A stretch of DNA of 52,315 bases, taken from Pseudomonadota bacterium. GTDB taxonomy: Bacteria; Pseudomonadota; Gammaproteobacteria; Steroidobacterales; Steroidobacteraceae. Where the stretch lies: NCBI GenBank assembly GCA_021792555.1, contig JAJYUL010000024.1:1-52315 (forward strand), given 5' to 3'. The translations under genes were made by a program, and so were the position numbers. The first letter of the stretch is position 1, and each line of letters starts with the position of its first letter. Shown piece after piece: positions 33,642-52,058 of this stretch. Below the pieces are notes generated by a model. That model was not told where the DNA came from and ran no database searches. It saw only the letters and a list, made by a program, of their open reading frames with translations.

Positions 33642-35063
33642 ATGGATTTCTTGCCGGTGTTTCTCGATGTCCGCTCGCGCTCCTGCCTGGTGGTGGGCGG
33701 CGGCGAGGTGGCGGCGCGCAAAGCGGAACTCCTGATGCGGGCGAACGCCGCCGTCACGGTGGTGGCACCCGAGCTTGGCAGAAGCCTCGCACGCTATCGC
33801 GCTGCGGAAAGACTCGCTCACCGTGCGCGTGCGTTTCGAGCCAGCGACATCGACGGTTGCGCTCTGGTCATTGCCGCGACGGATGACGAGGCTGTCAACA
33901 GCGAGGTCTCCGATCTGTGCCGCGAGCGTGCCATTCCCGTCAATGTGGTCGATGCGCCCGAGCTCTGCAGCTTCATCGTGCCGTCCATCGTCGATCGCTC
34001 GCCGGTGATCGTGGCAGTCTCCTCGGGCGGCGCCTCGCCGGTTCTCTCGCGCATGGTGCGTACGAAGCTGGAAACGATGCTGCCGGCCTCGTATGGCAGG
34101 CTCGCGACGCTCGCGCAGGGGTTGCGCGAGCGGGTCAAGCGCCGCTTCACGAGCGTGGCGCAGCGCCGCCGTTTCTGGGAAGAGGTGCTGCACGGTCCTG
34201 CAGCCGAGATGATGCTGGCTGGACGGGAGCGGGCAGCGAAGTGCGCGATCGAGTTGGCACTCCAGCAGGACACACCCGCGTCGCTTTCGATGGGCGAGGT
34301 GTATCTGGTGGGCGCAGGTCCCGGTGATCCTGACCTGCTCACTTTCCGGGCCCTACGCCTGATGCAGCAGGCCGACGTCGTGGTGTACGACCGGCTGGTC
34401 GCGCCGGCGATTGTCGATCTGGCGCACCGTGGCGCCGAGCGCATCTTCGTCGGCAAGGCGCGTGGCGAGCACGCCCTGGCACAGGAGGAGATCAACGAAG
34501 TCCTGATCCGACTTGCGCGCGCTGGCAAGCGCGTCCTGCGCCTCAAGGGTGGAGATCCTTTCATCTTTGGCCGCGGAGGCGAGGAAGCCGATGTGCTGGC
34601 CGAGCAGGGCATTCCGTTTCAGATCGTGCCGGGCATTACGGCAGCATCGGGCTGCGCGGCCTACGCGGGCATCCCGCTGACCCATCGTGATTTCGCCCAC
34701 AGCTGCGTGTTCGTTCCCGGACACCTCAAGGATGGGGGTGATCTTGACTGGGGCGCACTGGCCCAGCCTCGTCAGACCATTGTGATCTACATGGGCTTGC
34801 ACGCTCTCGAGCCCATCTGCCGACGGCTGATCGAAGCGGGTTTGCCGGCCGCAACGCCCGCCGCGCTGATTCAGGACGGCACGACGCACAGCCAGCGAGT
34901 GCTGATCGGTGATCTGGCGGGCTTGCCGGCGAAGGCCGCGGAGGCGCTCATGCGCCCGCCTGCGCTGCTGATCATCGGCGAGGTGGTCAGACTCCACGAG
35001 CGTTTTGCCTGGTTTGAGCCGGCGGGCGTCACAGAGGCGAGCGCCGTCAGGGCGGTCGGATAG
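33642..35063 (+). CDS. cysG: siroheme synthase CysG
   Basis: 473 residues, trifunctional. N-terminal precorrin-2 dehydrogenase/ferrochelatase with VVGGGEVAARKA (NAD site) and SSGGASPVLSR; C-terminal uroporphyrinogen-III methyltransferase from about residue 223 with YLVGAGPGDPDLLTFRA, LKGGDPFIFGRGGEE and VPGITAASGCAAYAGIPLTHR. It makes siroheme from uroporphyrinogen III in the cytoplasm. In this place it feeds DsrAB, with DsrN making the amide form. It stands just upstream of the dsr genes, separated by one minus-strand gene. Confidence 0.96.
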   Translation: MDFLPVFLDVRSRSCLVVGGGEVAARKAELLMRANAAVTVVAPELGRSLARYRAAERLAHRARAFRASDIDGCALVIAATDDEAVNSEVSDLCRERAIPVNVVDAPELCSFIVPSIVDRSPVIVAVSSGGASPVLSRMVRTKLETMLPASYGRLATLAQGLRERVKRRFTSVAQRRRFWEEVLHGPAAEMMLAGRERAAKCAIELALQQDTPASLSMGEVYLVGAGPGDPDLLTFRALRLMQQADVVVYDRLVAPAIVDLAHRGAERIFVGKARGEHALAQEEINEVLIRLARAGKRVLRLKGGDPFIFGRGGEEADVLAEQGIPFQIVPGITAASGCAAYAGIPLTHRDFAHSCVFVPGHLKDGGDLDWGALAQPRQTIVIYMGLHALEPICRRLIEAGLPAATPAALIQDGTTHSQRVLIGDLAGLPAKAAEALMRPPALLIIGEVVRLHERFAWFEPAGVTEASAVRAVG

Positions 35064-35066
35064 TTC

Positions 35067-35756
35067 TCAATCCTCGGCGCCGCGCGCGCAGGCGGCGGGC
35101 CGCTTGTAGGGCATGAAAAGCCCGCACCCGAGCAACCGCCCGGAGCCGATGCCGTTTGCCAGCAACGCAACCGATTCGCGCGGGGCGAGGCTGACGATCA
35201 TGACACTGCGCGTAATGAGAGCTCCCCCGGGACTGGCGATCCGGCGGCTCTTGCCGCACATGAGCTTTGGACGCGCCGAGCCAAGAGAGCGCATTGCCTG
35301 CGCAACGCGGTCGAGGAAGATCTCTTCGTCGCGTGCCTCATCGATGACGTGGCGGGCATAGAGCGTCTCGGCCGGCGAGAGCGCAACGACCGTCGGGGAA
35401 CCGATCCGTAGCGGACAGCCGGCAACCCACAGCGTACTGCCGGCCAATGCTCGTCCGTCTTCGATCCGCTCGAGCGGAAGCCGCAATACCAATCGGGCGC
35501 GTTTTGGCAGATGGATGAGCGCGCCGTCACTTTCGTCGCATTGCCAGCCGTTGCCCGACTCGACACCAAGGGCGAGACGCAGCCCGGCGGCGCGCACTGA
35601 AGACAACCAGGGCAGCACCTCGGTGGCCGCGAGGCAAAGGGCGAGGCGGTAATCGAAGGGAATCGTCCCGCCCGATAGTGCAAACGACAGATCGGCGGCC
35701 GAGCAGGCAGCGACCGCGGCATCCTCAGCGTCCTCGCTCCAGTAGCGATATGTCAT
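35067..35756 (-). CDS. Cas6/Cmx6-like protein without a CRISPR array
   Basis: 229 residues. The pattern follows the Cas6 subtype Cmx6 (I-MYXAN type; PF09559-like, from memory): DLSFALSGGTIPFDYRLAL, VLPWL, LPKRARLVLRLPLERI, LAGSTLWVAG, LYARHV, DEEIF, LMCGK, and the C-terminal Gly-rich GIGSGRLLGCGLFMPYK. Cas6 proteins cut CRISPR precursor RNA, but no repeat array or other cas gene is in this window. Histidines usually found after LPWL and in the last motif (F-P-H-K) are Arg and Tyr here, so RNA cleavage may be lost. It lies between cysG and dsrA on the opposite strand, sharing the dsrA upstream region. A role in dsr mRNA binding is a guess. Confidence 0.72.
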   Translation of the reverse strand: MTYRYWSEDAEDAAVAACSAADLSFALSGGTIPFDYRLALCLAATEVLPWLSSVRAAGLRLALGVESGNGWQCDESDGALIHLPKRARLVLRLPLERIEDGRALAGSTLWVAGCPLRIGSPTVVALSPAETLYARHVIDEARDEEIFLDRVAQAMRSLGSARPKLMCGKSRRIASPGGALITRSVMIVSLAPRESVALLANGIGSGRLLGCGLFMPYKRPAACARGAED

Positions 35757-35786
35757 GCCCTAAAGCTTCCGCGCCAGGTGCACGCC

Positions 35787-35811
35787 GCATATATCCCAAA
35801 GGAGATACCGC
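35787..35811. promoter_or_regulatory. second ATATATC-CCAAAGGA motif, between cas6-like gene and dsrA
   Basis: GCATATATCCCAAAGGAGATACCGC matches the reverse complement of the site at 33560-33584 through ATATATC, CCAAAGGA and ATA. Both look like imperfect versions of a palindrome TATCTCC-AAA-GGAGATA. It lies 31 bases upstream of the cas6-like start and 150 upstream of dsrA. Likely a binding site for a common regulator; inferred. Confidence 0.5.
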
Positions 35812-35963
35812 GCCCTGGACCGGCTATCCCGTCTGCGCAATACCGAGCAGCGCCGCTCGCGCCTAGAGTCCCCTGCACAGTGACGCGGTCCGCTCTGTCG
35901 TGCGCGGCGGGTGGGCGCCAGGACCCGGAAAGGGTCGCAATCGACAACTTGCGATGCAACCTT

Positions 35964-37241
35964 ATGAGCCCGAAAACACCTGAAACGCCCATGCTGGACC
36001 AACTTGAAGGCGGTCCATGGCCGAGCTTCGTCTCAGGACTGAAGCGCCTGGCCAACGCGCAGGACAAACCCTATGCCCCCATGATGACTGATCTGCTCGG
36101 CCAGCTCGAACGCTCTTACGAAACGAAGCGTGGGTACTGGAAGGGCGGCACCGTGGGCGTGATCGGCTACGGGGGCGGTGTCATCCCGCGCTTCACGGAG
36201 CTGCGTGACGAGGACGGCACGCCCGAATTTCCGGACGCGGCGGAATTTCATACGTTGCGCGTCATGCCGGCTCCGGGCATGCACTACACGACCGACGCAC
36301 TGCGCAAGATCTGTGACGTGTGGGAGAAATACGGCTCCGGCCTCATCGCGCTCCATGGCCAGAGCGGCGACATCATGCTGCAGGGCTGCCGCAGCCGTAA
36401 TGTGCAGCCCTGCTTCGATGAGATGAATGAGCTGGGCTACGATCTCGGCGGGGCCGGGCCGGCCGTGCGCACCTCGATGTCCTGCGTGGGACATGCGCGT
36501 TGCGAGCAGTCCTGCTACGACGAGATCCGCGCCCACACCCAGATCATCAACGCCTTCCTGGACGACATGCATCGTCCGGCGCTGCCCTACAAGTTCAAGT
36601 TCAAGTTTTCCGGCTGCCCGAACGACTGCATGAATGCCATCCAGCGCGCTGACATGGCGGTAATCGGCACGTGGCGGGACGATATCCAGATCGATCAGGA
36701 TGAGGTGCGTAGACACGTGTCCGAGAGCGGCCGGCGGGCAGTGATCGACAACGTCGTCACCCGTTGCCCGACCCGTAGCGTGTCCCTGAAGGAAGACGAC
36801 ACGATCGAAATCGATAACCGCAACTGCGTGCGCTGCATGCATTGCATCAATGTCATGCCCAAGGCTCTGCGGCCCGGGACGGACCGCGGCGTCACCATCC
36901 TTCTAGGCGGCAAGCGTACGCTCAAGATCGGCGACCTGTTCGGCACGGTGATCGTGCCGTTTATGAAGCTGGAAACGGATGGTGACTTCGATAGGCTCCA
37001 GGCACTGGCACAGAACATCATAGACTTCTTCGCCGAGAACGCGCTGGAGCACGAGCGCACCGGCGAGATGATCGAACGCATCGGATTTGCCAATTTTCTC
37101 AAGGCGCTCGGCCTTGAGCCCGATCCGAGCATGGTGCTGCATCCGCGCACCAACCCATACGTCCGTACCGACGGCTGGGACGAGGAAGCCGAGAAGTGGA
37201 ATGCGCGTCAAAGCACCCAAGTCACCGGGGGTCCTCGATGA
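35964..37241 (+). CDS. dsrA: reverse-type dissimilatory sulfite reductase alpha subunit
   Basis: 425 residues. The MLDQLEGGPWPSF start, siroheme/4Fe-4S cysteines (CVGHARCEQSC and FSGCPNDCMNA) and the inserted ferredoxin domain (NCVRCMHCINVMPKAL) identify DsrA. DsrAB oxidises DsrC-bound sulfur to sulfite in the cytoplasm; the presence of dsrEFH and dsrL marks the oxidative direction. ATG at 35964 fits the family N-terminus; the frame runs open to 35778, but those residues are not DsrA. The stop overlaps dsrB by four bases. Confidence 0.97.
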   Translation: MSPKTPETPMLDQLEGGPWPSFVSGLKRLANAQDKPYAPMMTDLLGQLERSYETKRGYWKGGTVGVIGYGGGVIPRFTELRDEDGTPEFPDAAEFHTLRVMPAPGMHYTTDALRKICDVWEKYGSGLIALHGQSGDIMLQGCRSRNVQPCFDEMNELGYDLGGAGPAVRTSMSCVGHARCEQSCYDEIRAHTQIINAFLDDMHRPALPYKFKFKFSGCPNDCMNAIQRADMAVIGTWRDDIQIDQDEVRRHVSESGRRAVIDNVVTRCPTRSVSLKEDDTIEIDNRNCVRCMHCINVMPKALRPGTDRGVTILLGGKRTLKIGDLFGTVIVPFMKLETDGDFDRLQALAQNIIDFFAENALEHERTGEMIERIGFANFLKALGLEPDPSMVLHPRTNPYVRTDGWDEEAEKWNARQSTQVTGGPR

Positions 37242-38341
37242 GCGCTCCTGCCAAGCCCCGCATGCCCGTCGAGAGCGGCGTTCCGGATGCGTTTCAATTC
37301 ATGCATCCGGTCCTGAGGAGGAACTACGGCAAATGGAAGTGGCACGAGCGGCCTCGTCCGGGCGTGCTGCATCACGTGGCCGAAAGCGGCGAGCACGTGT
37401 GGACCGTCCGCGCCGCAACGCAGCGCCAGATGGATGTATTCACGGTCCGCAAGCTGTGCGACATCGCCGATCAGTACGCTGATGGCTACATCCGCTTCAC
37501 CATTCGCAGCAATATCGAGTTCATGGTCGGCGAGGAGGCCAAGATCGCCCCACTGATCGGCGCACTTGGCGCCCACGGATTCCCCGTCGGTGGCACCGGC
37601 AACTCCGTGCGCACGATCTCCCATACCCAGGGCTGGCTGCATTGCGACATTCCCGGCACCGACGCATCAGGGGTGGTCAAGGCGCTGATGGATGAGCTGC
37701 ACGAGGAATTCGTCAACGAGCGCATGCCCAATCGGGTCGGCATCACCACCTCGTGCTGCGAAATAAACTGCGGCGGCCAGGGCGACATCGCGGTCAACAT
37801 CCAGCACACCAAGCCGCCCCGGATCAATCATGATCTGGTGGCTAATGTCTGCGAACGCCCGGCGGTGGTGGCTCGCTGCCCGGTAGCGGCAATCAGGCCG
37901 GCCGTGGTCAACGGCAAGCCGACGCTGGAGGTGGACGAGACGAAATGTGTCTGCTGCGGCGCGTGCTTTCCGCCGTGCCCGCCGATGCAGATCAATGATC
38001 CGGAGCACACCAAAATCGCGATCTGGGTGGGCGGGAAGCACTCCAATGCCCGCACGCGCCCGACGTTCCACAAGCTGGCCGTGGCTGGCCTGCCCAACAA
38101 CCCGCCCCGTTGGCCGGAAGTGGCGGCTGCGGTGAAGACGATTCTGCGCACATATCAGCAGGACGCCAGGGACTGGGAGCGCATCGGTGAGTGGATCGAG
38201 CGCATCGGCTGGCCACGCTTCTTCGAGCTCACCGGTCTGCCGTTCACGCCCTATCACATCGACAACTGGCGCGGCGGGCGGGGTAGCCTGAATGCCTCGG
38301 CGCATATCCGTTTTTCGGTGGGCAGCGGGAGCGGGCGATGA
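37238..38341 (+). CDS. dsrB: reverse-type dissimilatory sulfite reductase beta subunit
   Basis: 367 residues. MHPVLRRNYGKWKWHE, SCCEINCGGQGDIAVNI, CPVAAIRPAV and the ferredoxin motif CVCCGACFPPCPP are DsrB landmarks. It completes the alpha2beta2 enzyme and carries the catalytic siroheme. ATGA overlaps join it both to dsrA and to dsrE. Confidence 0.97.
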   Translation: MSAPAKPRMPVESGVPDAFQFMHPVLRRNYGKWKWHERPRPGVLHHVAESGEHVWTVRAATQRQMDVFTVRKLCDIADQYADGYIRFTIRSNIEFMVGEEAKIAPLIGALGAHGFPVGGTGNSVRTISHTQGWLHCDIPGTDASGVVKALMDELHEEFVNERMPNRVGITTSCCEINCGGQGDIAVNIQHTKPPRINHDLVANVCERPAVVARCPVAAIRPAVVNGKPTLEVDETKCVCCGACFPPCPPMQINDPEHTKIAIWVGGKHSNARTRPTFHKLAVAGLPNNPPRWPEVAAAVKTILRTYQQDARDWERIGEWIERIGWPRFFELTGLPFTPYHIDNWRGGRGSLNASAHIRFSVGSGSGR

Positions 38342-38697
38342 AGTTCGGGATACTCGTGAACGAGGGCCCATATCAGCATCAGGCCTCCGACTCGGCGTAT
38401 CAATTTGCCGTAGCGGCGTTGGCAAAAGGGCATCAGATCTATCGCGTGTTCTTCTACAACGATGGGGTAAACAACGCCAACAAGCTGACTGAGCCGCCGC
38501 AGGATGACCGGAATATCACCCGGCAATGGTCGACGCTCGCGGCGGAGCACCGTCTCGACATGGTCGTGTGCGTTGCGGCGGGGCTGCGCAGGGGCATCAA
38601 GGCCGAGATCCTCGCCCCCGGGTTCAATATCTCCGGTCTCGGACAGCTGATCCAGGCGGGCATAGAAGCCGACCGGCTCGTGGTCTTTGGCGACTGA
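38338..38697 (+). CDS. dsrE: DsrE sulfurtransferase subunit
   Basis: 119 residues. The active cysteine is Cys78 in VVCVAAGLRRG, the same number as in Allochromatium vinosum DsrE. It binds persulfide and passes it to DsrC as part of the DsrE2F2H2 hexamer, found only in sulfur oxidisers. Start overlaps the dsrB stop. Confidence 0.96.
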   Translation: MKFGILVNEGPYQHQASDSAYQFAVAALAKGHQIYRVFFYNDGVNNANKLTEPPQDDRNITRQWSTLAAEHRLDMVVCVAAGLRRGIKAEILAPGFNISGLGQLIQAGIEADRLVVFGD

Positions 38698-38710
38698 GGG
38701 CGAGGCGAGA

Positions 38711-39106
38711 ATGAGCGATACGCAAGCAAATGAGGGCGGGGACCGCAAGGTCAAGCGCTTCATGTTCGTCAACCGCAAGGCGCCCTACGGAACAATCTAT
38801 GCGCTCGAGGCGCTGGAGGTCGTGCTGATCGGCGCGGCGTTTGATCAGGATGTGAGCCTGGTCTTCGCGGATGACGGTGTCTATCAGCTCAAGAAGGGCC
38901 AGCAGACCAAGGGGATCGGTCAGAAGAATTTCTCGCCGACCTACCGGGCCCTGGAGGACTACGACATCGAGAAGCTGTACGTGGAGCGCGAATCGCTGCA
39001 GGCGCGGGGTCTATCGCCCGACGATCTTCTCGTGCCGGTGCGCGTGCTCGGGTCCGCCGAGCTCAGTGTGCTGATGGACGAGCAGGACGTGCTTCTTAGC
39101 TTCTGA
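38711..39106 (+). CDS. dsrF: DsrF, sulfurtransferase complex subunit
   Basis: 131 residues. FMFVNRKAPYGTIYALEALEV and LVFADDGVYQL are typical of DsrF. It has no cysteine, so it is structural in the DsrEFH hexamer. The ATG at 38711 follows GAGGCGAGA; a 13-base gap separates it from dsrE. Confidence 0.95.
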   Translation: MSDTQANEGGDRKVKRFMFVNRKAPYGTIYALEALEVVLIGAAFDQDVSLVFADDGVYQLKKGQQTKGIGQKNFSPTYRALEDYDIEKLYVERESLQARGLSPDDLLVPVRVLGSAELSVLMDEQDVLLSF

Positions 39107-39118
39107 GGGGAGAACGAG

Positions 39119-39427
39119 ATGGCAGTATTGCATACCACCAACAAATCGCCGCTGCAGACGCGGGACCTGGAGTCCTGTCTTCGTCTCACCCGTCCGGGCA
39201 GCGGGATTCTTCTGATGGAGGATGCCGTCTACGGCGCTCTGAGGTCCACCGAGGCGAGCGCGAGGCTGGCGCAGGCGGCGAAGGACAGACGAATTTACGT
39301 TCTCGGGCCGGACCTCGCCGCGCGTGGCTTCACGCCAGAGGAGGTGATCGATGAGGTCGAGGTTGTCGATTACGGCGGCTTCGTCGATCTAGTCGCGGAA
39401 CATCACCATGTGCAGGCTTGGGTCTGA
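39119..39427 (+). CDS. dsrH: DsrH sulfurtransferase subunit
   Basis: 102 residues. MAVLHTTNKSPLQTRDLESC gives Cys20, the second conserved cysteine of the DsrEFH complex. GILLMEDAVYGAL is another landmark. A GAGGGGAGAACG ribosome site lies just upstream. Confidence 0.95.
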   Translation: MAVLHTTNKSPLQTRDLESCLRLTRPGSGILLMEDAVYGALRSTEASARLAQAAKDRRIYVLGPDLAARGFTPEEVIDEVEVVDYGGFVDLVAEHHHVQAWV

Positions 39428-39486
39428 TATGCAAGTGCCGAGGCGGATGGCGACGGGTTTGCAAACGCTATATCGGGAGCAAAGAC

Positions 39487-39825
39487 ATGACAGCAGCAGT
39501 GGCATTACAAGATAGGGAAGTGGCGGTCGATGAAGAGGGCTATCTGGTCAATCTTTCCGACTGGAACGAGGATGTGGCCAAAACCATGGCGGCCGATGAC
39601 AGCATCGCGCTCACGGACAATCACTGGGAAGTGATCAACTTCCTGCGTGAGTATTATGCGGAATACCAGGTGGCGCCGGCGATCCGTGTGCTCACCAAGG
39701 CGATCGGCAAGAAGCTCGGTCCGGAGAAGGGCAACAGCAAGTACCTGTACGAGCTGTTCCCTTATGGTCCCGCCAAACAGGCCTGCCGCTATGCCGGTTT
39801 GCCGAAGCCGACGGGCTGCATCTGA
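39487..39825 (+). CDS. dsrC: DsrC, sulfur carrier for DsrAB
   Basis: 112 residues. The C-terminal arm ACRYAGLPKPTGCI carries Cys100 and Cys111, eleven residues apart, with the penultimate cysteine that marks true DsrC rather than TusE. DsrC takes sulfur from DsrEFH, presents it to DsrAB, and its trisulfide/disulfide form interacts with DsrK. ATG at 39487 has GGGAG at 39475-39479. Confidence 0.97.
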   Translation: MTAAVALQDREVAVDEEGYLVNLSDWNEDVAKTMAADDSIALTDNHWEVINFLREYYAEYQVAPAIRVLTKAIGKKLGPEKGNSKYLYELFPYGPAKQACRYAGLPKPTGCI

Positions 39826-39917
39826 TCGCATGATATTGGCCGCCACGAGGTCGGGCCATCGGGGCCGGGTGTGGGCCGAGAGAGGGGGCCGGGGCTGACG
39901 CCGGGAGGATGCGCGCG

Positions 39918-40661
39918 ATGCCGATCCTGACTGTGATCTTTGCGCTGCTGCTCTACGGAGCCGCTGCAGTGTTCGTGGTCGGCGTGTCCTACCGGGTGTT
40001 CACGTATGCGCGCACCCCGGCGCCGCTGAAGATACCGACCATGCCGGCGCCTGTGACCCGCGCCGGCGTGGTCTTTCGCGTGGCTCGCGAGGTTGGACTG
40101 TTCGAGAGCCTGTTCAAGTCGAGCAAATGGACCTGGATATTCGCGGTGATGTTCCACCTGGGGCTGCTGCTCGAGGTGCTGCGTCACCTGCGGTATTTCA
40201 TTCAGCCGATTTGGTTCTGGGTGGTGCTTGTGCAGCCGTTCGGCGTCTATGGCGGCATGATGATGGTGGCGGGACTGCTCGGGTTGCTCGGACGCCGATT
40301 GCTAATCGCGCGGGTGCGCTACATCAGTCAGCCTTCGGATTACCTGATCCTGCTGCTGTTGCTCGGGATCGGTGTGTCCGGCTTTGCGATCACGTTTCTT
40401 CACCACACCGACATCGTGTCGTTCAAGGCCTTTGTTCTGGGTCTTCTTTACTTCGACTGGCAGCCTGTGCCGGCGAATCCCTTGTTGCTGGCGCACTTGA
40501 GCATGGTGGCGGCGCTGCTGATCGTATTCCCGTTCAGCAAGCTGCTGCATGCGCCCGGGGTCTTCTTCAGCCCGACGCGCAACCAAGTGGATGATGCTCG
40601 CGAGCGGCGGCATCTTGCGCCCTGGGCGGCGCAGCTCACGGGCGGCGGGGACGAGGTGTAG
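39918..40661 (+). CDS. dsrM: DsrM, haem b membrane subunit
   Basis: 247 residues, about five membrane helices in a NarI-like arrangement, with histidines in VMFHLGLLLEVLRH and TFLHHTDIV suited to haem b. It passes electrons between quinone and DsrK. ATG at 39918 is preferred since GGAGG at 39904-39908 is nine bases away; the ATG at 39909 touches that site. Confidence 0.93.
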   Translation: MPILTVIFALLLYGAAAVFVVGVSYRVFTYARTPAPLKIPTMPAPVTRAGVVFRVAREVGLFESLFKSSKWTWIFAVMFHLGLLLEVLRHLRYFIQPIWFWVVLVQPFGVYGGMMMVAGLLGLLGRRLLIARVRYISQPSDYLILLLLLGIGVSGFAITFLHHTDIVSFKAFVLGLLYFDWQPVPANPLLLAHLSMVAALLIVFPFSKLLHAPGVFFSPTRNQVDDARERRHLAPWAAQLTGGGDEV

Positions 40662-40662
40662 C

Positions 40663-42159
40663 GTGGCGAAGGTGGATTTCAAGGTCCCCGCGGTAGAGGA
40701 GTATCTCAAGACCCCGGAACTACAGCCGGGGGCCATGGCCAAGAGCGCGCCCTTCAAGGCCGCGCCCCGACATCAGGAGGCGCTCGGCTTTCCGGGCGAG
40801 CTGGTCGAGGACTGGGAGCGGCGCGCGGTCGCGAAGCTCGCGGACCTGCTGAAGAAATACCGATCGCTGCGCGTGCATCTCGATGCGTGCGTCAAGTGCG
40901 GCTCGTGCGCCGACAAATGCCAGTACTTCCTCGGCACGGGAGATCCGAAGAACATGCCGGTGGCGCGGCAGGATCTGTTGCGCAGCATCTACCGGCGCCA
41001 TTTCACGCTCGCGGGGAAGCTCTTTCCGCGTCTGGTCGGTGCGCGTGACCTCGATCCGAGCGTGCTCGAGGAGTGGTACGGCTACTTCCATCAGTGCTCG
41101 CAGTGCCGGCGCTGCTCCGTGTTCTGCCCGTACGGCATCGACACCGCGGAAATCTCGATGGCGGCGCGCGAGATCCTGGATGAGATCGGCATCGGCCAGA
41201 AGTACTGCAACGAGATCCTCGGAAAAGTTCACACGCTCGGCAACAATCTGGGCCTGCCCGCGCCGGCGCTCGCCAACACGCTGGAAGGCCTGGAAGAGGA
41301 TGTCAAGGAGGACACAGGCGCCGATGTGCGCTTTCCGCTCGACGTCCAAGGCGCCGAAGTCCTGCTCATCGCGCCTTCGGCCGATTTCTTCGCCGAGCCG
41401 CACATCGACGGATTGATCGGCTATGCGAAGGTATTCCATCAGGCAGGTGTCAGCTGGACGCTGAGCTCCTACGCGTCCGAGGCGGCGAACTTCGCCATGT
41501 TTATCGGCAATTACGAGCAGATGCGCAAAGTTGCGCTGCGTATCCGCAAGGCGGCAATCGATCTTAAGGTCAAGCGCATCATCGTAGGGGAATGCGGCCA
41601 TGCGTGGCGCGTGGCCTATAGCTTCTGGAACACGCTCGCCGGGCCATTCGATTTCCTGGACCCGCGCTATCCGGTGCCGCAGCACATCATCGAATTCACA
41701 CATGACCTGATCGAGAGGGGCGCGATCAAGCTCGACAAGGAAGCCAACGATCACATGAGAGTCACCTTTCACGATTCGTGCAACGTGGCGCGGGCCACGC
41801 GTATGGGCGCGAGGCCGGGCGGGCAGTTCGTGCTGCCGCGAGAGGTGATCAAGGCGAGCTGCAACCACTTCTTCGACATGGCTCCGGAGACTATCGGCGA
41901 GAAGACGTTCTGCTGCGGCGGAGGAGGCGGTCTTCTGACTGATGAGCTGCTGGAACTGCGGGTCAAGGGCGCGCTGCCGCGCATGCAGGCGCTGCGGGAA
42001 GTGCACAAGGAGCACGGTGTGACGCACATGGCAGCCATCTGCGCCATATGCAAGAGCCAGTTCAGCAAGGTGCTTCCCTATTACGAGTTCCCGATGGAGA
42101 CGATCGTGAGCGTGCATCAGCTTGTGAGCAACGCCATTCAACTGGGCAAGAATTCATGA
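40663..42159 (+). CDS. dsrK: DsrK, CCG iron-sulfur subunit
   Basis: 498 residues, GTG start two bases after the dsrM stop. Two 4Fe-4S motifs, CVKCGSCADKCQ and CSQCRRCSVFCP, then HdrD-like CCG regions: GECGHAWR, HDSCNVAR, FCCGGGGGLL and CAICKSQ. It is the cytoplasmic-face catalytic subunit of DsrMKJOP, thought to react with the DsrC disulfide. Confidence 0.96.
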   Translation: MAKVDFKVPAVEEYLKTPELQPGAMAKSAPFKAAPRHQEALGFPGELVEDWERRAVAKLADLLKKYRSLRVHLDACVKCGSCADKCQYFLGTGDPKNMPVARQDLLRSIYRRHFTLAGKLFPRLVGARDLDPSVLEEWYGYFHQCSQCRRCSVFCPYGIDTAEISMAAREILDEIGIGQKYCNEILGKVHTLGNNLGLPAPALANTLEGLEEDVKEDTGADVRFPLDVQGAEVLLIAPSADFFAEPHIDGLIGYAKVFHQAGVSWTLSSYASEAANFAMFIGNYEQMRKVALRIRKAAIDLKVKRIIVGECGHAWRVAYSFWNTLAGPFDFLDPRYPVPQHIIEFTHDLIERGAIKLDKEANDHMRVTFHDSCNVARATRMGARPGGQFVLPREVIKASCNHFFDMAPETIGEKTFCCGGGGGLLTDELLELRVKGALPRMQALREVHKEHGVTHMAAICAICKSQFSKVLPYYEFPMETIVSVHQLVSNAIQLGKNS

Positions 42160-42192
42160 GAGCGGAGTGTCGGCGAGGCGAGGGTATGTAGC

Positions 42193-44121
42193 ATGTCCAT
42201 ATCGGTGCAAGACAAGGGCGCTCGGCCGACGTTCCCTCGCTACCGCAATGGTGATGAGGCGCCGCGCTCGTGGCGGGAAGCGATCTTCCAGGCGGGCCAT
42301 TCCCACAAGTGTCCGACCTACGTGCAGCGCACGCCGCCATGCCAGGGGAGCTGTCCCTCGGGCGAGGACATCCGCGGCTGGCTTGACATCGTGCGGGGTC
42401 TCGACAAGCCGCGCCAGGGGCAATCCTGGCAGGAATACGCCTTCCGCCGCCTGACCGACGCGAATCCATTTCCCGCGGTCATGGGGCGCGTCTGCCCGGC
42501 GCCGTGCGAGGCGGGCTGCAACCGCAACGATCTTGACGATCATGTCGGCATCAATGCGGTGGAGCAGTTCATCGGTGATACGGCGTTGAAGCAAGGGTAT
42601 CGCTTCGATCCGCCCGCTGGCGAGACGGGCAGAAAGGTCGCAGTGATCGGCGGCGGCCCAGCGGGCCTTTCCTGCGCCTACCAGCTTCGCCGCCGTGGCC
42701 ACAAGCCGACCATCATTGAAGAGAAAGCCAAGCTCGGCGGCATGCTGCGCTATGGCGTGCCGCGATATCGCGTACCGGCGGAGGTCTTAGACGGCGAGAT
42801 CCAGCGGATCCTCGAGATGGGCGTTGAGGTACGGGCGAACTGCCGCGTCGGCACAGACATCAGTCTCGAGGAGCTGGCGGGTGATTACGACGCAGTGTTT
42901 TGGGGAATCGGCACGCAGATTGGCCGCAAGCTTCCGATCGCGGGCGCGGATGCGCCCAATTGCCTCGACGGCATCGAATTCCTTCATGCCTTCAATGACG
43001 GGCGGCTGAGCGCGGCGCCGAGACGCATCATCGTCATAGGCGGCGGCGACACCTCCATCGACGTGACAACGGTTGCACGCAAGCTGTCCGGGCGCGATGG
43101 GGGAACGGCCGGAGAACCATCGACCTACACCGCCGATACGGTGGCCGCGCAGGCAGCGTCTGGCGGTGCGCAGGTGACGCTGACGACGATCTTTCCATTG
43201 GGAAACATGCAGGCGTCGCCGCGTGAAGTGGCGGATGCGCGCTCGTTGAACGTCGAGATTCACGGCGGCGTGATGCCGGTGCAGATCCTTCTTGATGGGA
43301 AAGGCAATGCCCGCGCCGTGCGCTACGCGGCGTGCCGCATCGAGAGGAACGTCCCGGTGCGCATCGAGGGCGGCCGTGAATTCGAGCTTGAGGCCGACCT
43401 GGTGATCTTTGCAGTCGGCCAGAAGGGCAACTTGGCCGGACTTGAGGCGCTGAGCAACGGGCGCGATGCCATCAGCGCAGGCGGCGTGTTCGAGGTGCCG
43501 GGCCATCGTGGCCACTTCGTAGGAGGCGATATCGTCGCGCCGCATCTGCTCACCACCGCCATCGGCCATGGCTGGATCGCCGCTGAGGGGATTGACGCCT
43601 TTCTATCTGGCGCCGAGCCGTCCAAACGCCCCAAAGTGGACAAGCATCAGTTCGAGCTGCTTCAGGCGCTGCGTCACGCGGGGATCGCACTTTCTGACTA
43701 TCCGCATGGGCCGGTGCGCGGCACGAGCGACGCCGACTTCGCGGTGCACAATTTCGACAATCGCGCCGAGCGGGAGATCGTAAAGTCCTCGGATCTGTTC
43801 CTGGGTCATTTCACGCCCGAACCGCGCATCGAACGCGAGGAGCGGCGTCTCGCCGCCGTGTTCGCCGAAGGAGGCGAGCGCATCAAGACGCTTCTCGAAG
43901 CCCAGGCGGTTGCTGAAGCCAAGCGCTGCATGAGCTGCGGCCTGTGCGTCGAATGCGACAACTGCGTGGTGTACTGTCCGCAGAGAGCGGTTAAAAAGGT
44001 GCCGAAAGCGCAGCACACCATCGGTCGCTACGTCTTCACCGACTACAGCCGCTGCATCGGCTGCCATGTCTGCCACGACGTTTGTCCGACCGGCTATATC
44101 CAGATGGGCTTGGGCGAGTAG
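42193..44121 (+). CDS. dsrL: DsrL, NAD(P)H:acceptor iron-sulfur flavoprotein
   Basis: 642 residues. N-terminal cluster region CQGSCPSGEDIRGW and CPAPCEAGC, FAD site VIGGGPAGLSCA, NAD(P) site VIGGGDTSIDV, and a C-terminal pair of ferredoxin motifs (CMSCGLCVECDNC and CIGCHVCHDVCP). DsrL links DsrAB to the pyridine-nucleotide pool and is required for oxidation in purple sulfur bacteria; this layout fits the DsrL-1 type. It follows dsrK after 33 bases. Confidence 0.95.
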   Translation: MSISVQDKGARPTFPRYRNGDEAPRSWREAIFQAGHSHKCPTYVQRTPPCQGSCPSGEDIRGWLDIVRGLDKPRQGQSWQEYAFRRLTDANPFPAVMGRVCPAPCEAGCNRNDLDDHVGINAVEQFIGDTALKQGYRFDPPAGETGRKVAVIGGGPAGLSCAYQLRRRGHKPTIIEEKAKLGGMLRYGVPRYRVPAEVLDGEIQRILEMGVEVRANCRVGTDISLEELAGDYDAVFWGIGTQIGRKLPIAGADAPNCLDGIEFLHAFNDGRLSAAPRRIIVIGGGDTSIDVTTVARKLSGRDGGTAGEPSTYTADTVAAQAASGGAQVTLTTIFPLGNMQASPREVADARSLNVEIHGGVMPVQILLDGKGNARAVRYAACRIERNVPVRIEGGREFELEADLVIFAVGQKGNLAGLEALSNGRDAISAGGVFEVPGHRGHFVGGDIVAPHLLTTAIGHGWIAAEGIDAFLSGAEPSKRPKVDKHQFELLQALRHAGIALSDYPHGPVRGTSDADFAVHNFDNRAEREIVKSSDLFLGHFTPEPRIEREERRLAAVFAEGGERIKTLLEAQAVAEAKRCMSCGLCVECDNCVVYCPQRAVKKVPKAQHTIGRYVFTDYSRCIGCHVCHDVCPTGYIQMGLGE

Positions 44122-44126
44122 TGGCA

Positions 44127-44717
44127 ATGGCGGCAATCCGGCTGATCATCGCGATCATGCTGTTCGCCCTGATCGCGGCGGTGCCGGCCGTCGCTGGGCG
44201 GGTGCCGATGCCGAAGATACCGCCGGCGAAAGGTGCTCATTGCGTCCGCCCGACGGAGTGGATGCGCAGGAACCACATGAAGCTCCTGATGCAGCTGCGT
44301 TACGAGGCGGTGCACGAGGGCATTCGCCACAAGCGCGAGTCGCTGCCCGGGTGCATCGCCTGCCACGTGTCGCGGCTGGCAGATGGAAAGTACCCCTCGG
44401 TGAAGAGCCGGAAGTTCTTCTGCAATGCATGCCATCAGTACGTCGGGACGCGCATCGACTGCTTTTCCTGCCACACCAACCGGCCGGACGCCGCGTACGA
44501 GGTCGCAGATGGGGTCGGGAAATCGTCGGGTGTGGAGCCCGAAGGCGGGCGCAGCGGCACTGGGGGGTGGGCGCGGGCGGTTGCGATTGTGGCCTCCGGT
44601 GCCGGATCGGGGTCCTCCGGAAGGGTGGGTGCCGATGGGGCGAAGCGGACGAAGGAGCAGCGAGCCGTCACTCGCGGGGGGCAGCTATTAACCCGGCGTC
44701 TAACTACTGGACAATAA
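44127..44717 (+). CDS. dsrJ: DsrJ, triple-haem cytochrome c, 3' end altered by IS insertion
   Basis: 196 residues. N-terminal membrane anchor (residues 4-23), Cys39 in HCVRPTEWMRRNHM (the unusual haem-ligand cysteine), and three CxxCH sites: CIACH, CNACH, CFSCH. It is the periplasmic subunit of DsrMKJOP. After the third haem an unusually long Gly/Ser/Ala-rich tail of about 80 residues follows. The last ten residues (from LTRRLTTGQ) come from the IS630 element; without it the frame would read QLRGRP and stop at the dsrO start. ATG at 44127 is used; GTG at 44121 touches the dsrL stop. Confidence 0.9.
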   Translation: MAAIRLIIAIMLFALIAAVPAVAGRVPMPKIPPAKGAHCVRPTEWMRRNHMKLLMQLRYEAVHEGIRHKRESLPGCIACHVSRLADGKYPSVKSRKFFCNACHQYVGTRIDCFSCHTNRPDAAYEVADGVGKSSGVEPEGGRSGTGGWARAVAIVASGAGSGSSGRVGADGAKRTKEQRAVTRGGQLLTRRLTTGQ

Positions 44718-45804
44718 GACGATATGATGCGATGATGCGGAATGCCGAACAAACCTGATCGTCGAAGCGCAAGTACGGATGTCCGCCTGGAGTTGCGTCG
44801 GCAGATGCTGATGCTGCGCGAGCAGGGCAAGACGCACGTGGAGATCGCACAGATCACCGGCTACACCCGCTCGTACGTGTCGACGATGCTCAAGCGCCTG
44901 GAGGGGACTCCGCAGATGCTGGAAGGTATGTCGCGTGGCGGGCGGCCGCAGGGCAGCCTTCGAGCGCTGTCGGCGAAGGAAGAGCGTCGGGCGCAGCAGT
45001 TGATTTGCGGCAAATGCCCCGATCAGCTGTCGTTGCCGTTCGCGCTGTGGACGCGTGGAGCGATTCGCGAGCTGATCCGGCGGGAGTTCGGCATCCGGCT
45101 ATCGATCCGGGGAGTCGGAGAGTACGTGGCGCGGTGGGGCTACACCCCGCAGAAGGCGGCACGGCGAGCGTACGAGCGCGATGATGCGGCGGTGAAGGAC
45201 TGGCTGTCGATCGAGTATCCGAAGATCAAGGCGCGCGCAAAGCGGGAAAACGCCGAGATCAGCTGGGGGGATGAGACCGGGGTTCGTTCGGACGAGAGTC
45301 GTCATCGCGGCTACGCCCCACCTGGGCAGACGCCGATTGTGAAGATCCCCGCCCGTCGCAAGAGCCTCTCGATGATCGCGGCGGTGACGAACCAGGGGAA
45401 GGTTCGGTTCATGATCTACCCGGGGGGTCTGAGCCCAGAGCGCTTGATCGTGTTCATGCAAAGGCTGATCAAGGACGCCCCTCGCAAGGTGTTTCTCATC
45501 CTCGACAATCTGAACGTTCACAAGGCGAAGGTGGTGCGCGAGTGGCTTGCAGAGCATGCCGAACGAATCGAGGTGTTCTATCTGCCCCCATACTCCCCGG
45601 AGTTGAATCCGTCCGAATACTTCAACGGCGACCTGAAGGGTGAGATTCAGCGTGGCGTCCCGCCGAAGGACGTGGCGGACCTGAAGCGAACGATGTTGAG
45701 CACTTCGCGCCGCATCCAGAAATCACCGAGGCGCGTACGTGCTTACTTCAAACATCGCCACATCAGATATGCTGCGTAAGTCCACTGCAATCACGCCGGG
45801 TTAA
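44688..45804 (+). mobile_element. IS630-family insertion sequence, complete
   Basis: 1117 bases bounded by exact 12-bp inverted repeats, TTAACCCGGCGT (44688-44699) and ACGCCGGGTTAA (45793-45804), flanked by TA on both sides (44686-44687 and 45805-45806), the TA target duplication of IS630/Tc1-type elements. It carries one intact transposase gene, so it looks recent and probably active. It lies in the last codons of dsrJ. Confidence 0.93.
44742..45779 (+). CDS. IS630-family transposase
   Basis: 345 residues, intact. N-terminal helix-turn-helix (LREQGKTHVEIAQITGYTRS), then the DDE domain: ISWGDETGVR (first Asp), FLILDNLNVHKA (second Asp), YSPELNPSEYFNGDLK (Glu). It moves the element by cut-and-paste at TA sites. 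It is transcribed in the direction of the dsr operon, so read-through to dsrO may be kept. Confidence 0.95.
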   Translation: MPNKPDRRSASTDVRLELRRQMLMLREQGKTHVEIAQITGYTRSYVSTMLKRLEGTPQMLEGMSRGGRPQGSLRALSAKEERRAQQLICGKCPDQLSLPFALWTRGAIRELIRREFGIRLSIRGVGEYVARWGYTPQKAARRAYERDDAAVKDWLSIEYPKIKARAKRENAEISWGDETGVRSDESRHRGYAPPGQTPIVKIPARRKSLSMIAAVTNQGKVRFMIYPGGLSPERLIVFMQRLIKDAPRKVFLILDNLNVHKAKVVREWLAEHAERIEVFYLPPYSPELNPSEYFNGDLKGEIQRGVPPKDVADLKRTMLSTSRRIQKSPRRVRAYFKHRHIRYAA

Positions 45805-45817
45805 TAAGGGGGCGGCC

Positions 45818-46630
45818 TTGAACCCGCTCAAGCCGCGCTCTCGTCGGCGCGTGGCGCCGGAAGGCCCGGGTGACGGGATGCGCGACAGTGCCTTGCCGCA
45901 GGTCGCTTGCGACCAGGACCGTCGTCGCGTTCTCGGCATCGCCGGGGCGGTCGCTCTTGCGCTCGCTCCGGGGCTGAGCCTCATCGCCTATGCGCAGAGC
46001 GGTTCGCCGGCGGGGGCCGCCGCGAGCGCAAGGACGCGCTGGGGCTTGCTGATCGACACTGCGAAGTGCACGCCGTCCTGCACTGCCTGTGTCACGGCGT
46101 GCTCATCGTATAACGGTTGGAAGAACGAGGGGCGGCCTACTGACCCGCAATGGATCCGCAAGGTGCAGGTGTCCGATCCGAGCACGGGATTCTCGCGCTC
46201 GGTGCCGGTGATGTGCCAGCACTGCGCGAATGCGCCCTGCGTTGAGGTCTGCCCGACCGGGGCGTCTTTCAAGCGCGCCGACGGCATCGTGCTTGTCGAT
46301 CGGCACATCTGCATCGGCTGCCGCTACTGCATGATGGCCTGTCCGTACAAAGCGCGCTCCTTCGTCAGCGAGAATCTCTCCGACCAGAAACCATGGGCGC
46401 CTCGGGGGAAAGGCACGGTGGAAGGGTGCACGCTGTGCGTGCCGCGGGTCGATGCTGGGAAGGTGCCCGCCTGCGTCGAAGCGTGCGCGCGCGAAGGCAA
46501 CGGTGCGATGACCTTCGGCGATCTGAACGACCCTGCGAGCCCGATCCGCCGCGCCCTGGCGCAGCATCCCGCAGTGCAGTTGCGCGCCGATCTGCTGCTC
46601 GACACCGGTGTGCGTTATGAGGGACTCTAA
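45818..46630 (+). CDS. dsrO: DsrO, periplasmic iron-sulfur protein
   Basis: 270 residues. A Tat signal (DRRRVLGIAGAVALAL) leads to a periplasmic protein with several ferredoxin motifs: CTPSCTACVTAC, CQHCANAPCVEVCP, CIGCRYCMMACP and CTLCVPR. It transfers electrons between DsrJ and DsrP. TTG at 45818 is taken as the start because, with the IS removed, TTGA would overlap the dsrJ stop; ATG at 45878 is possible and keeps the signal. Confidence 0.92.
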   Translation: MNPLKPRSRRRVAPEGPGDGMRDSALPQVACDQDRRRVLGIAGAVALALAPGLSLIAYAQSGSPAGAAASARTRWGLLIDTAKCTPSCTACVTACSSYNGWKNEGRPTDPQWIRKVQVSDPSTGFSRSVPVMCQHCANAPCVEVCPTGASFKRADGIVLVDRHICIGCRYCMMACPYKARSFVSENLSDQKPWAPRGKGTVEGCTLCVPRVDAGKVPACVEACAREGNGAMTFGDLNDPASPIRRALAQHPAVQLRADLLLDTGVRYEGL

Positions 46631-46633
46631 AAG

Positions 46634-47872
46634 ATGAGCGTCGTCCATTACCGCGAGATCGCGGGGCGCAGCCCGGGGTACTGGGGGCTGGTGGCTCTGC
46701 TCACTGCGTTCGTGGCGGCGGGACTGACGGCGGCCTGGTTCATGGAGCACATCGGGCACATCATCACCGGCATGACCAACCAGGTGGTCTGGGGCATGCC
46801 GCACGTGTTCGCGGTTTTTCTGATCGTGGCGGCCTCGGGGGCACTCAACGTCGCCTCCATTGCCTCGGTCTTCGGCAAGGTGGCGTACAAACCCCTGGCG
46901 CGCCTGTCCGGGCTGCTGGCCGTCGCGCTGCTGATCGGCGGGCTCTCCATCCTGGTGCTGGATTTGGGCCGACCAGACCGGCTCGTCGTCGCCATGACGC
47001 ATTACAACTTCCGATCCATTTTCGCCTGGAACATCTTCCTCTACACCGGATTCGTGGCCGTCACCGGGTTCTATCTGTGGGTGATGATGGAGCGGCGCTT
47101 GAACCGATATACCCGCATGGTCGGCACGGCCGCCTTCCTGTGGCGGTTGATCCTCACCACGGGCACCGGCTCGATCTTCGGCTTCCTGGTGGCGCGCGCG
47201 CCTTATGACGAGGCAATCATGGCCCCGATGTTCATCGTCATGTCATTCTCCTTCGGGCTCGCGATCTTCCTACTGGTGCTCATGGCGGCGTGCAAGGGCA
47301 CGGGCCGGCCGCTCGGCGACGTCACTCTGATGCGGCTTAAGAATCTCCTGGGCGTGTTCGCTGCGGGCGTGCTGTATTTCCTGCTCGCCTTCCACATCAC
47401 CAAACTCTACGAGGCCGAGTTTCGCGGCGCCGAGGCCTTTCTCCTGCTGAACGGCGGCATCTACACCTTCCTATTCTGGTTCGGGGCGGTGTTCCTCGGC
47501 GGCGTGCTGCCGATGCTGCTGTTCTGGCTGCCGCAGACGCGCCGGTCGCGCGCTGCGGTCGGTTGGGGATCGGCGTCGGTGGTCGTGGGCGGGCTCGCGC
47601 TCATGTACGACATCATTATCGGCGGACAGGCTTGGCCGCTGTCGATTTTTCCCGGAATGCACGTCTCCAGCTCCTTCTACGACGGCGTGGTGAATTTCTA
47701 CGCCCCAAGCCTTCCGGAGTGCGCGCTCGGCCTCGGTGGCTGCGCGCTCGCTATGCTCCTCATTTTGCTCGCACTGCGACTTCTGCCGTTCCTGCCGGAG
47801 AGCGTCCTCGACGATTCCGGCGAATCGCACAGCGCCGTCGCCGGGACCTCGACGGCGCCGGGAGCGGCCTGA
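46634..47872 (+). CDS. dsrP: DsrP, NrfD-like membrane subunit
   Basis: 412 residues with about ten membrane helices of the NrfD/PsrC type, for example GLVALLTAFVAAGLTAAW at the start and the LDLGRPDRL loop. It carries quinone-linked electrons in DsrMKJOP without haem-binding histidine pairs. ATG at 46634 is three bases after the dsrO stop. Confidence 0.95.
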   Translation: MSVVHYREIAGRSPGYWGLVALLTAFVAAGLTAAWFMEHIGHIITGMTNQVVWGMPHVFAVFLIVAASGALNVASIASVFGKVAYKPLARLSGLLAVALLIGGLSILVLDLGRPDRLVVAMTHYNFRSIFAWNIFLYTGFVAVTGFYLWVMMERRLNRYTRMVGTAAFLWRLILTTGTGSIFGFLVARAPYDEAIMAPMFIVMSFSFGLAIFLLVLMAACKGTGRPLGDVTLMRLKNLLGVFAAGVLYFLLAFHITKLYEAEFRGAEAFLLLNGGIYTFLFWFGAVFLGGVLPMLLFWLPQTRRSRAAVGWGSASVVVGGLALMYDIIIGGQAWPLSIFPGMHVSSSFYDGVVNFYAPSLPECALGLGGCALAMLLILLALRLLPFLPESVLDDSGESHSAVAGTSTAPGAA

Positions 47873-47888
47873 GGGAGAATCCCGGATC

Positions 47889-51066: not shown

Positions 51067-51738
51067 ATGCACGTTCTCATCATCGACGATCACACGCTGT
51101 TCCGGGCCGGGTTGAAGGGTCTTTTGGAGAGGCGGGGAATTGCAGTCAGCGTCATCGGCAACGGCGAGGATGGCGTGCGCCTGGCCGCACAGATCCAGCC
51201 CGACGTCGTGCTGCTCGATCTGCGCATGCCTGGAATGAACGGCCTGCAGGTGCTTCAGCGCTTGCGCGAGGACGGTCTCGGCCGGCCGGTGGTGATGCTC
51301 ACCACCAGCGATGATGAGCGCGATCTGGTCGGCTCCCTGCGTTGCGGCGCGCAGGGCTACTTCCTGAAGGACATGGACCCTGATGCGCTGGTGCAAGCGC
51401 TCCATGAGGTTCTTCAGGGCAAGACCGTCGTCACTCCGGAGCTCACGACGGTTCTTGCGGAGGTGGTGCAGCGTGGCGAGACGAATGCCGAGACGCCGCA
51501 CGCGCTGTTCGAGGGGTTGACCCCGCGGGAACTTGAAATCTTGCGCCATCTGGCCGAAGGCGAAAGCAATAAAATCATTGCACGCTGTCTAGGCATTTGC
51601 GATGGAACGGTCAAATTGCATGTAAAGGCGATCCTGCGCAAGCTGGGCCTTTCTTCGCGCGTCGAGGCGGCCGTGTTCGCGGCGCAGCGGGGCCTTGGTG
51701 GCAAGCCTTGCGCCCCCGCAAAGCTGTCGAGCATTTGA
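51067..51738 (+). CDS. NarL-type response regulator
   Basis: 223 residues. Receiver domain with IIDDHTLFR, phosphoacceptor Asp51 in VVLLDLRMPGMNG, TTSDDE and a Lys in YFLKDMDP; C-terminal LuxR-type HTH from GLTPRELEIL to VKLHVKAILRKLGL. It starts seven bases after the kinase stop, so they are one unit. Targets unknown; the motif shared before cysG and dsrA is one candidate. Confidence 0.95.
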   Translation: MHVLIIDDHTLFRAGLKGLLERRGIAVSVIGNGEDGVRLAAQIQPDVVLLDLRMPGMNGLQVLQRLREDGLGRPVVMLTTSDDERDLVGSLRCGAQGYFLKDMDPDALVQALHEVLQGKTVVTPELTTVLAEVVQRGETNAETPHALFEGLTPRELEILRHLAEGESNKIIARCLGICDGTVKLHVKAILRKLGLSSRVEAAVFAAQRGLGGKPCAPAKLSSI

Positions 51739-51984: not shown

Positions 51985-52058
51985 GGCTAGGTGGCAGAGT
52001 GGTCATGCAGCGGCCTGCAAAGCCGTCTACGCCGGTTCGATTCCGACCCTAGCCTCCA
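51985..52058 (+). tRNA. tRNA-Cys (anticodon GCA)
   Basis: Acceptor stem GGCTAGG pairs with CCTAGCC (52048-52054), followed by T and encoded CCA. The anticodon arm GCGGC-CTGCAAA-GCCGT gives anticodon GCA. The T arm has the GGTTCGATTCC core. 74 bases including CCA. It stands near the sulfur genes but this is probably chance. Confidence 0.95.

Follow-up and report, generated by a model that had tools for sequence, protein, structure and literature searches.

A Cas6-family gene divergent from dsrA and its possible recruitment to Dsr sulfur oxidation in Gammaproteobacteria

Why should a gene of the Cas6 family, whose members are named for their role in clustered regularly interspaced short palindromic repeats (CRISPR) systems, stand between cysG and dsrA in a cluster of sulfur genes? 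The question is raised by contig JAJYUL010000024.1 (GCA_021792555.1) of a bacterium from the Steroidobacteraceae, class Gammaproteobacteria, of which positions 1 to 52,315 were analysed (this whole stretch is called the window hereafter). An earlier note on this DNA had described the gene as a stand-alone Cas6/Cmx6-like one and had proposed that a Cas6-fold RNA-binding protein had been recruited to control sulfur genes, or acted on dsr mRNA or a small RNA. The recruitment of a Cas6 lineage to Dsr sulfur oxidation is strongly supported by the comparisons presented here, while an effect on dsr mRNA or on a small RNA is something that we infer. With confidence that is evenly divided, the gene is read as belonging to a Cas6 lineage that has left CRISPR to become a dedicated partner of Dsr, probably binding RNA and acting post-transcriptionally.

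Identity of the gene and its company with dsrA

The window protein was matched by PF09559 ('Cas6') at E 1.3e-46 and 159.4 bits (cut-off 26.7), by the NCBIfam model TIGR02807 (cas6_cmx6) at 108.7 bits, over the equivalog cut-off of 98.85, and by six PADLOC Cas6 models, each at E 4e-14 or better, so that the Cas6/Cmx6-like identity first suggested for it is borne out. It is the sole PF09559 match in a genome of 3.51 Mb that is 99.2% complete. The gap between the gene and dsrA comes to 207 nt, close to the 200 bases of divergent spacing given in the earlier note, because the dsrA start that fits the relatives, inferred from their alignment, is the ATG at 35964.

The partnership with dsrA was examined in 369 genomes drawn evenly from the class, with a dsrA threshold of E <= 1e-60. 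PF09559 was found in 118 and dsrA in 117 of them; 110 carried both, 8 PF09559 only, 7 dsrA only, and 244 neither, giving an odds ratio of 479 (Fisher p 1.5e-74, kinship being ignored). Counted by genus, the two families were present in 87 and 88 of 272, respectively. Both genes shared a contig in 82 of the 110 genomes and lay on different contigs in 28; in 80 of the 82 same-contig pairs they were divergent and 300-4510 nt apart, the two others (G255 and G469) being unlinked. The window gene has this same arrangement, divergent from dsrA within a few kb, and the survey of other dsr loci that had been proposed reaches far beyond one locus. Among 148 genomes comprising the window's own and its relatives, PF09559 was found in 7 and dsrA above the cut-off in 9; all 7 belonged to these 9, with dsrA divergent in each, and in G048, also among the 148, the contig begins at dsrA, with the match running from base 40. 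A scan of named genomes, using an alignment of six proteins from the 148-genome set (the window's included) as query, returned 15 loci, 12 of which, including Sideroxydans and Ferrovaceae, have dsrA divergent beside the gene, six of the 12 coinciding with contigs of the 148-genome set. In the Ferrovum locus L049 a DsrC-like gene adjoins and the contig starts 245 bases before the match, and no dsr genes were present at loci L048 and L050.

Contig ends could account for almost every one of the 15 genomes in the class sample in which only one of the two was found. Five of the dsrA-only genomes (G216, G225, G256, G352, and G499) have the 5' side of dsrA at most 1.8 kb from a contig end, and in a sixth, G269, the contig stops after TauD-like and TPR-like genes. 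Two of the eight genomes with only the cas6-like gene carry a dsrA fragment at a contig edge; the other six have a contig end within 2.6 kb on the 5' side of the gene, one of them (L138) with a different gene order. In a sample of 200 from the phylum, 46 genomes had dsrA, and the window's alone had PF09559; the 45 others with dsrA, all from outside the class, thus lack it, and the partnership is therefore not a general property of dsrA. A search of viral contigs found no relative.

A branch apart from the Cas6 of CRISPR systems

A tree was built from 75 distinct proteins out of 93 loci with a match, comprising 7 comparison members and 68 class members, the latter being all rows outside the comparison loci and including some unlinked to dsrA. 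Six of the seven comparison members lie in CRISPR operons. The two groups separate on one branch with support of 100/97, and the label switches once in 100% of 200 bootstrap trees; the bootstrap is not fully settled, the seventh comparison member (L173) is long-branched, and midpoint rooting was used. L173, from a Gloeobacter plasmid, is itself a Cmx6-family gene with no cas gene annotated nearby, lying among PAPS-reductase-family and hypothetical genes.

The separation extends to the residues. Column 60 of the alignment holds His in 7/7 comparison members and in 0/68 class members (4 gaps); this residue we take to be the active-site His, equivalent to His46 of PfuCas6, and the class members accordingly lack the active-site His of CRISPR Cas6. 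The Cas6 of the type I-B CRISPR-associated transposon (CAST; PDB 8fcj, 8fcu), which differs further in being part of a CRISPR RNA-guided transposon complex, also keeps the column-60 His. Other histidines are frequent in the class: column 44, which comes after a conserved Asp or Glu, holds His in 58/68 class and 7/7 comparison members, column 68 in 52/68, and column 71 in 47/68 class members. Column 44 is Tyr in nine class members, eight of them from the window's clade, and the window's protein, one of these eight, has no His at column 44, 68, or 71. The Gly-rich loop, in contrast to the column-60 His, is retained, with G203, G205, G211, C212, and G213 conserved in 66-68 of 68 (L001 numbering, which is that of the window protein plus one). 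Several basic residues are common to class and CRISPR members, and the class has conserved positions of its own (an N-terminal W, GNGW, E145, K165, and R184, in L001 numbering) that were unseen in comparison members. The comparison of structures called for in the earlier note gave a Cas6 fold with the Gly-rich loop, and the two tandem RRM-like domains by which Cas6 is defined in a passage of PMC3652601 are present; a single-sequence structure prediction for L051 was not used, its predicted local distance difference test score being 46.

Among the closest known systems is the type I-MYXAN Cas6 (TIGR02807 Cmx6, e.g. of Gloeothece citriformis plasmid pP742402), which belongs to the same Pfam/NCBIfam family and has a Gly-rich loop with GCG.F and a D-H at the start of helix 1. 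It differs in sitting within its own cas6-cas3-cas8a1-devR-cas5-cas4/1-cas2 operon, in keeping the His missing from all 68 class members, and in falling into a separate clade. The loss of this His is no proof that cleavage has been lost, because Sulfolobus solfataricus Cas6 (Sso1437) has no canonical catalytic His and is still active according to the passages of PMC3652601 concerned, in which recognition and chaperone-like activities are emphasised. The likeness to Sso1437 ends there, since that protein is dimeric and serves CRISPR.

The surroundings of the window gene do not resemble a CRISPR locus. Its neighbours are cysG and dsrA, with no cas3, cas8, cas7, or cas5 beside it; the genome has no Cas1, which besides Cas6 was the one cas gene looked for across the whole genome, and no repeat array was found in the scan of the window. 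A PADLOC scan of 20 further window proteins (part of the window's open reading frames) left 18 without a match, in agreement with the absence of other cas genes reported earlier; the weak matches of the LuxR-type regulator to SduA and two CARF models, and the single match, to PDC-S65, of the protein at 8261-9061, are not read as cas genes. As for CRISPR INDEPENDENCE, Cas1 was found somewhere in 35/80 linked genomes and in none of the other 45/80, the window's among these, the closest same-contig Cas1 being about 22 kb off (G384), and genomes of 1.0-1.1 Mb retain the cas6-like gene without Cas1. When 62 stretches (847 kb) were scanned for exact 20-mers, the cyanobacterial L174-L176 were seen to hold arrays and L145 a repeat in three copies. 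No array was found in the comparison loci L048, L050, and L172, and the sensitivity of the scan is therefore moderate, as only 3/6 cas-operon loci were detected, the others having arrays that were missed or that fall beyond the stretches scanned: L048 contains Cas3, DevR/Cas7, and Cas5 in a CRISPR operon, L050 has open reading frames similar in size and order to those of L048, and the control Cmx6 genes of L172, L174, L175, and L176 lie within I-MYXAN operons.

Neighbours, control region, and layout of the locus

Thirty-six regions with the gene, chosen from other families (L113-L148), reveal a recurrent module in the order TauD-like dioxygenase, a protein of about 235 aa, cas6-like gene, and DsrC-family protein, divergent from dsrABEFHCMK where linked. 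The TauD-like gene is present in 23/36, the ~235-aa protein (matched by no library, 'TPR-like' being our own reading) in 13/36, and the DsrC-family protein in 26/36. The window has no TauD-like or TPR-like gene. The TauD-like dioxygenase gene was seen divergent from dsrA in L113-L126 and also in L181 (G141) and L228 (G685), though no cas6-like gene was found at the last two.

The adjacent DsrC paralogues number 29 (the 26 above together with L049, L051, and L052), and 29/29 share the orientation of the cas6-like gene, a final stretch of 25 residues free of cysteine, and a KGGY terminus. Such a paralogue scored 103.5 bits against TIGR03342, the TusE/DsrC family (cut-off 53.5), and well under the TusE equivalog cut-off (99.4 vs 191). 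Regulatory DsrC-like proteins without cysteines are called RspA, and the KGGY paralogue is presumably RspA-like, sharing with RspA membership of the DsrC family without the C-terminal cysteines. We know of no link between RspA and a Cas6-like gene, and a search for RspA in the open-licence literature found nothing. Among genomes without an adjacent paralogue, six (G161, G243, G255, G356, G371, and G469) have a Cys-less DsrC elsewhere; extra DsrC-family proteins are present in G008, G030, and G048 but do not belong to the KGGY type. Downstream of cas6-dsrC2 in L128 and L137 come genes for a histidine kinase and a LuxR-type response regulator, and relatives of this pair close the dsr cluster of the window. 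The gene is kept in seven genomes (L141-L147) with no dsrA in the 16.5-17-kb region around it, where its neighbours include an RNase III gene (L141) and, nearby, a dihydrouridine synthase gene (L144) or an Obg gene (L145). In the 1.4-1.6-Mb genomes of L141 and L143 the gene, away from dsr, is divergent from an RNase III gene, assigned by Pfam for L141 and by sequence likeness for L143.

Published accounts touch on parts of this arrangement. The legend of Figure 3 in PMC10989796 (2023) lists 'purple: cas6' among the dsr clusters of mangrove metagenome-assembled genomes; cas6 goes undiscussed in the passages of that article that were searched, and 'CRISPR' is absent from its main text. In the portions of PMC5944118 concerned, Thiodictyon is described with additional DsrC-like genes, one of them with a locus tag near the dsr cluster, and Allochromatium vinosum DsrC is stated to bind DNA upstream of dsr. 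No paper linking Cmx6 or Cas6 to dsr was found in the open-licence literature, and subscription papers may know more.

The DNA upstream of dsrA was surveyed in 50 distinct loci, the patterns being read from the same sequences in which they were then counted. The palindrome TATCCC-N4-GGGATA was matched with no more than one mismatch in 32/50 (shuffles 0.0), CCCCATNGGTAGGGT with up to two mismatches in 18/50 (shuffles 0.1), and CCTAGACTT with up to one in 22/50 (shuffles ~2). An exact spacing of 35 nt separates the first two elements in 19/50 and the last two in 19/50. In the window, where the second element (P2) is unrecognisable, the distance from the near-palindromic P1 to CCTAGAGTC is 70 nt, the same total as 35 + 35. 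Owing to this rigid spacing to two further elements, the palindrome is read as a DNA operator with its promoter, and its candidacy as an RNA target of the Cas6-like protein was rejected on the same ground. In 15 genomes picked for a perfect P1 at dsrA, 5/20 perfect sites lay away from dsrA. The 7-2-7 layout is, we presume, like that of NarL-type sites. As an observation in its own right, many class loci have retained the same rigid layout of the dsr promoter.

The features of the window are collected in Table 1, in which the names dsrB, dsrEFHC, and dsrMKLJOPN-like are assumed from the gene order. Siroheme, the product associated with cysG, is the cofactor of DsrAB. The last gene of the cluster (N-like) encodes a CobB/CobQ-type amidotransferase. 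A DDE_3-type transposase gene (44742-45779, operon strand) splits dsrJ from dsrO, a space of less than 200 nt in six related loci (L039, L040, L042-L044, and L046). Downstream of the cluster lies a tRNA-Cys gene (51985-52058), and an Rfam scan of the window at gathering scores returned nothing besides one tRNA.

Table 1. Positions of the features discussed within the window.
Feature	Position	Strand	Remarks
cysG, siroheme synthase	33642..35063	+	NF007922, 641 bits
cas6-like gene, PF09559/TIGR02807 protein of the dsr-linked Cas6 lineage	35067..35756	-	229 aa, ATG start
Divergent intergenic region common to cas6-like gene and dsrA	35757..35963		207 nt
P1, near-palindromic site TATCCCNNNGGAGATA	35792..35807		once in whole genome; 9/9 aligned clade sequences
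P3, -10-like element CCTAGAGTC	35862..35870	+	70 nt past P1, a spacing shared with distant relatives
dsrA, dissimilatory sulfite reductase alpha	35964..37241	+	TIGR02064, 565 bits; reading frame open from 35778
dsrB	37196..38341	+	open reading frame; likeness to dsrA profile; name by order
dsrE, dsrF, dsrH, dsrC	38338..39825	+	names by order
dsrM, K, L, J, transposase gene, O, P, N-like	39909..49283	+	names by order
GAF-type histidine kinase	49428..51059	+	downstream end of dsr cluster
LuxR/NarL-type response regulator	51067..51738	+	together with the kinase, candidate reader of P1

Proposed role and competing explanations

The protein is envisaged to bind a specific RNA through its retained Gly-rich loop and conserved Arg and Lys residues, and may thereby tune how strongly sulfur-oxidation transcripts are expressed or how stable they are. 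Class members may have little or no cleavage activity left, although this activity need not be gone, as the His-less Sulfolobus Cas6 illustrates; binding or chaperoning is therefore likelier than the action of a turnover nuclease. In most examined regions, its partner would be the neighbouring DsrC paralogue in the same orientation, which, having no sulfur-carrying cysteines, could serve as a sensor or adaptor. The protein could presumably also act without this paralogue, because none was found in the window's genus. The fuller version, in which domestication of a Cas6 at an early stage of the class gave a post-transcriptional regulator, with the Cys-less DsrC as sensor of the sulfur state and an operator region shared with dsrA, is put forward tentatively and falls short of being probable. 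To our knowledge, this would be the first Cas6 with a metabolic, non-CRISPR job.

Several observations weigh against a dedicated, RNA-binding Dsr partner. Folding of 50 dsrA leaders, scored as z against approximate dinucleotide shuffles, showed them to be no more structured than the shuffles (mean z -0.35, 4/50 below -2, control stretch -0.03); the window's own leader is among the four (z -2.3), and four clade relatives gave 0.8, 0.6, -0.6, and -1.2. The dsrC-dsrM gap is better folded than shuffles (mean z -1.75, 9/24 below -2), with a smaller excess in the dsrA-dsrB gap (mean z -0.79, 8/26 below -2). The hairpins after dsrC, however, are as evident where the gene was not found (mean z -2.04, 5/8 below -2) as where it is present (mean z -1.55, 12/27 below -2), and they look like terminators; only three of these eight loci without the gene are free of a near contig end (L181, L228, and L229, with 0.9, 0.3, and -4.0). 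A partial terminator favouring dsrC mRNA is a candidate role for the hairpin. Directly past the dsrC stop, L115, L117, L118, L120-L123, and L127 have strong GC hairpins, in many cases with T-rich DNA after them.

Also to be counted on this side is that most of the window's clade has lost the other conserved His residues, and that the window's genome has no Cys-less DsrC, its sole DsrC-family match being dsrC with both cysteines. Among the 148 relatives, G141 is an unexplained exception, with dsrA, a TauD-like gene, and cysG and no cas6-like gene in its 14-kb dsrA region or its genome. The dsrA-only G356 (86% complete) has more than 10 kb upstream of dsrA without a cas6-like gene, its Cys-less DsrC lying 118 nt from a contig start, where such a gene could be cut off. 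Linked inheritance of the dsr cluster could produce part of the co-occurrence. The control outside the class is partial, as it tests mostly another kind of dsr cluster: the dsrABEFHCMK order was present in 2/20 fetched regions (L228 and L229), only dsrA, dsrB, and dsrL were found in 17/20, one of which also had a TPR-like match, and the query used found no dsrC in 18/20.

Of the other explanations, a specific endoribonuclease that processes either a small RNA or the polycistronic dsr message, with an active site rearranged, for the greater part of the class, around the His of columns 44, 68, and 71, is unlikely but deserves to be taken seriously. The histidines at these columns in 58, 52, and 47 of 68 class members and the excess structure in the dsrC-dsrM and, less so, dsrA-dsrB gaps are what such an enzyme would lead one to expect; set against it are the column-60 His, present in every comparison member and in no class member, the window's protein, which lacks all three residues while its gene is still kept, and the post-dsrC hairpins, which resemble terminators and are at least as strong at loci in which no such gene was found. 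It is improbable that the protein instead takes part in the thiolation of tRNA or other RNA, splitting sulfane sulfur between tRNA modification and oxidation together with a TusE-like DsrC paralogue and DsrEFH, which is TusBCD-like. Membership of the paralogue in the TusE/DsrC family, by its TIGR03342 score, and the nearby dihydrouridine synthase gene in one unlinked genome speak for this role, whereas the paralogue lacks the sulfur-carrying C-terminal cysteines, falls far below the TusE equivalog cut-off, and is absent from the window's genome.

That the gene is an inert CRISPR remnant, a passenger moved along with the dsr cluster by horizontal transfer, is quite improbable: its divergence is indeed faster (80-82% identity vs 89-92% for dsrA in L038, L039, and L040, the nearest three loci with both), but the frames are open, the motifs are strongly conserved in 68 distinct proteins, and the gene is retained in reduced genomes and when unlinked from dsrA. 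Loss of the RNA function in favour of a structural role, or of contacts with other proteins such as DsrC paralogues or the Dsr complex, would account for the loss of the ancestral His and for the class-specific positions unseen in comparison members, yet retention of the Gly-rich loop and several basic residues of CRISPR members makes this very doubtful. Last of all, an ordinary Cas6 serving CRISPR arrays elsewhere in the genome, as the profile names and fold would have it, is close to refuted, and a CRISPR function was rejected in view of the absence of Cas1 from the window's genome and 45/80 linked genomes, the lack of an array in the window, the co-occurrence with dsrA, the separate clade, and the 1.0-1.1-Mb genomes that keep the gene without Cas1. 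The earlier note had named a missing profile or fold match, or a CRISPR array processed by this protein, as findings that would defeat its proposal; where this could be tested, matches were found and the window held no array.

A separate branch of the Cas6 family thus probably has an unrecognised job in sulfur metabolism. A 'CRISPR' label is easily given to this conserved companion of Dsr, as TIGR02807 scored above its cut-off in 4/4 class members tested, and a hit to TIGR02807 or PF09559 in the class should be kept out of CRISPR counts unless other cas genes accompany it. Its presence in 110/117 dsrA genomes of the class sample makes the function directly testable in many organisms. If the proposed reading is true, it would show that a protein for processing CRISPR RNA can pass into the service of ordinary metabolism.
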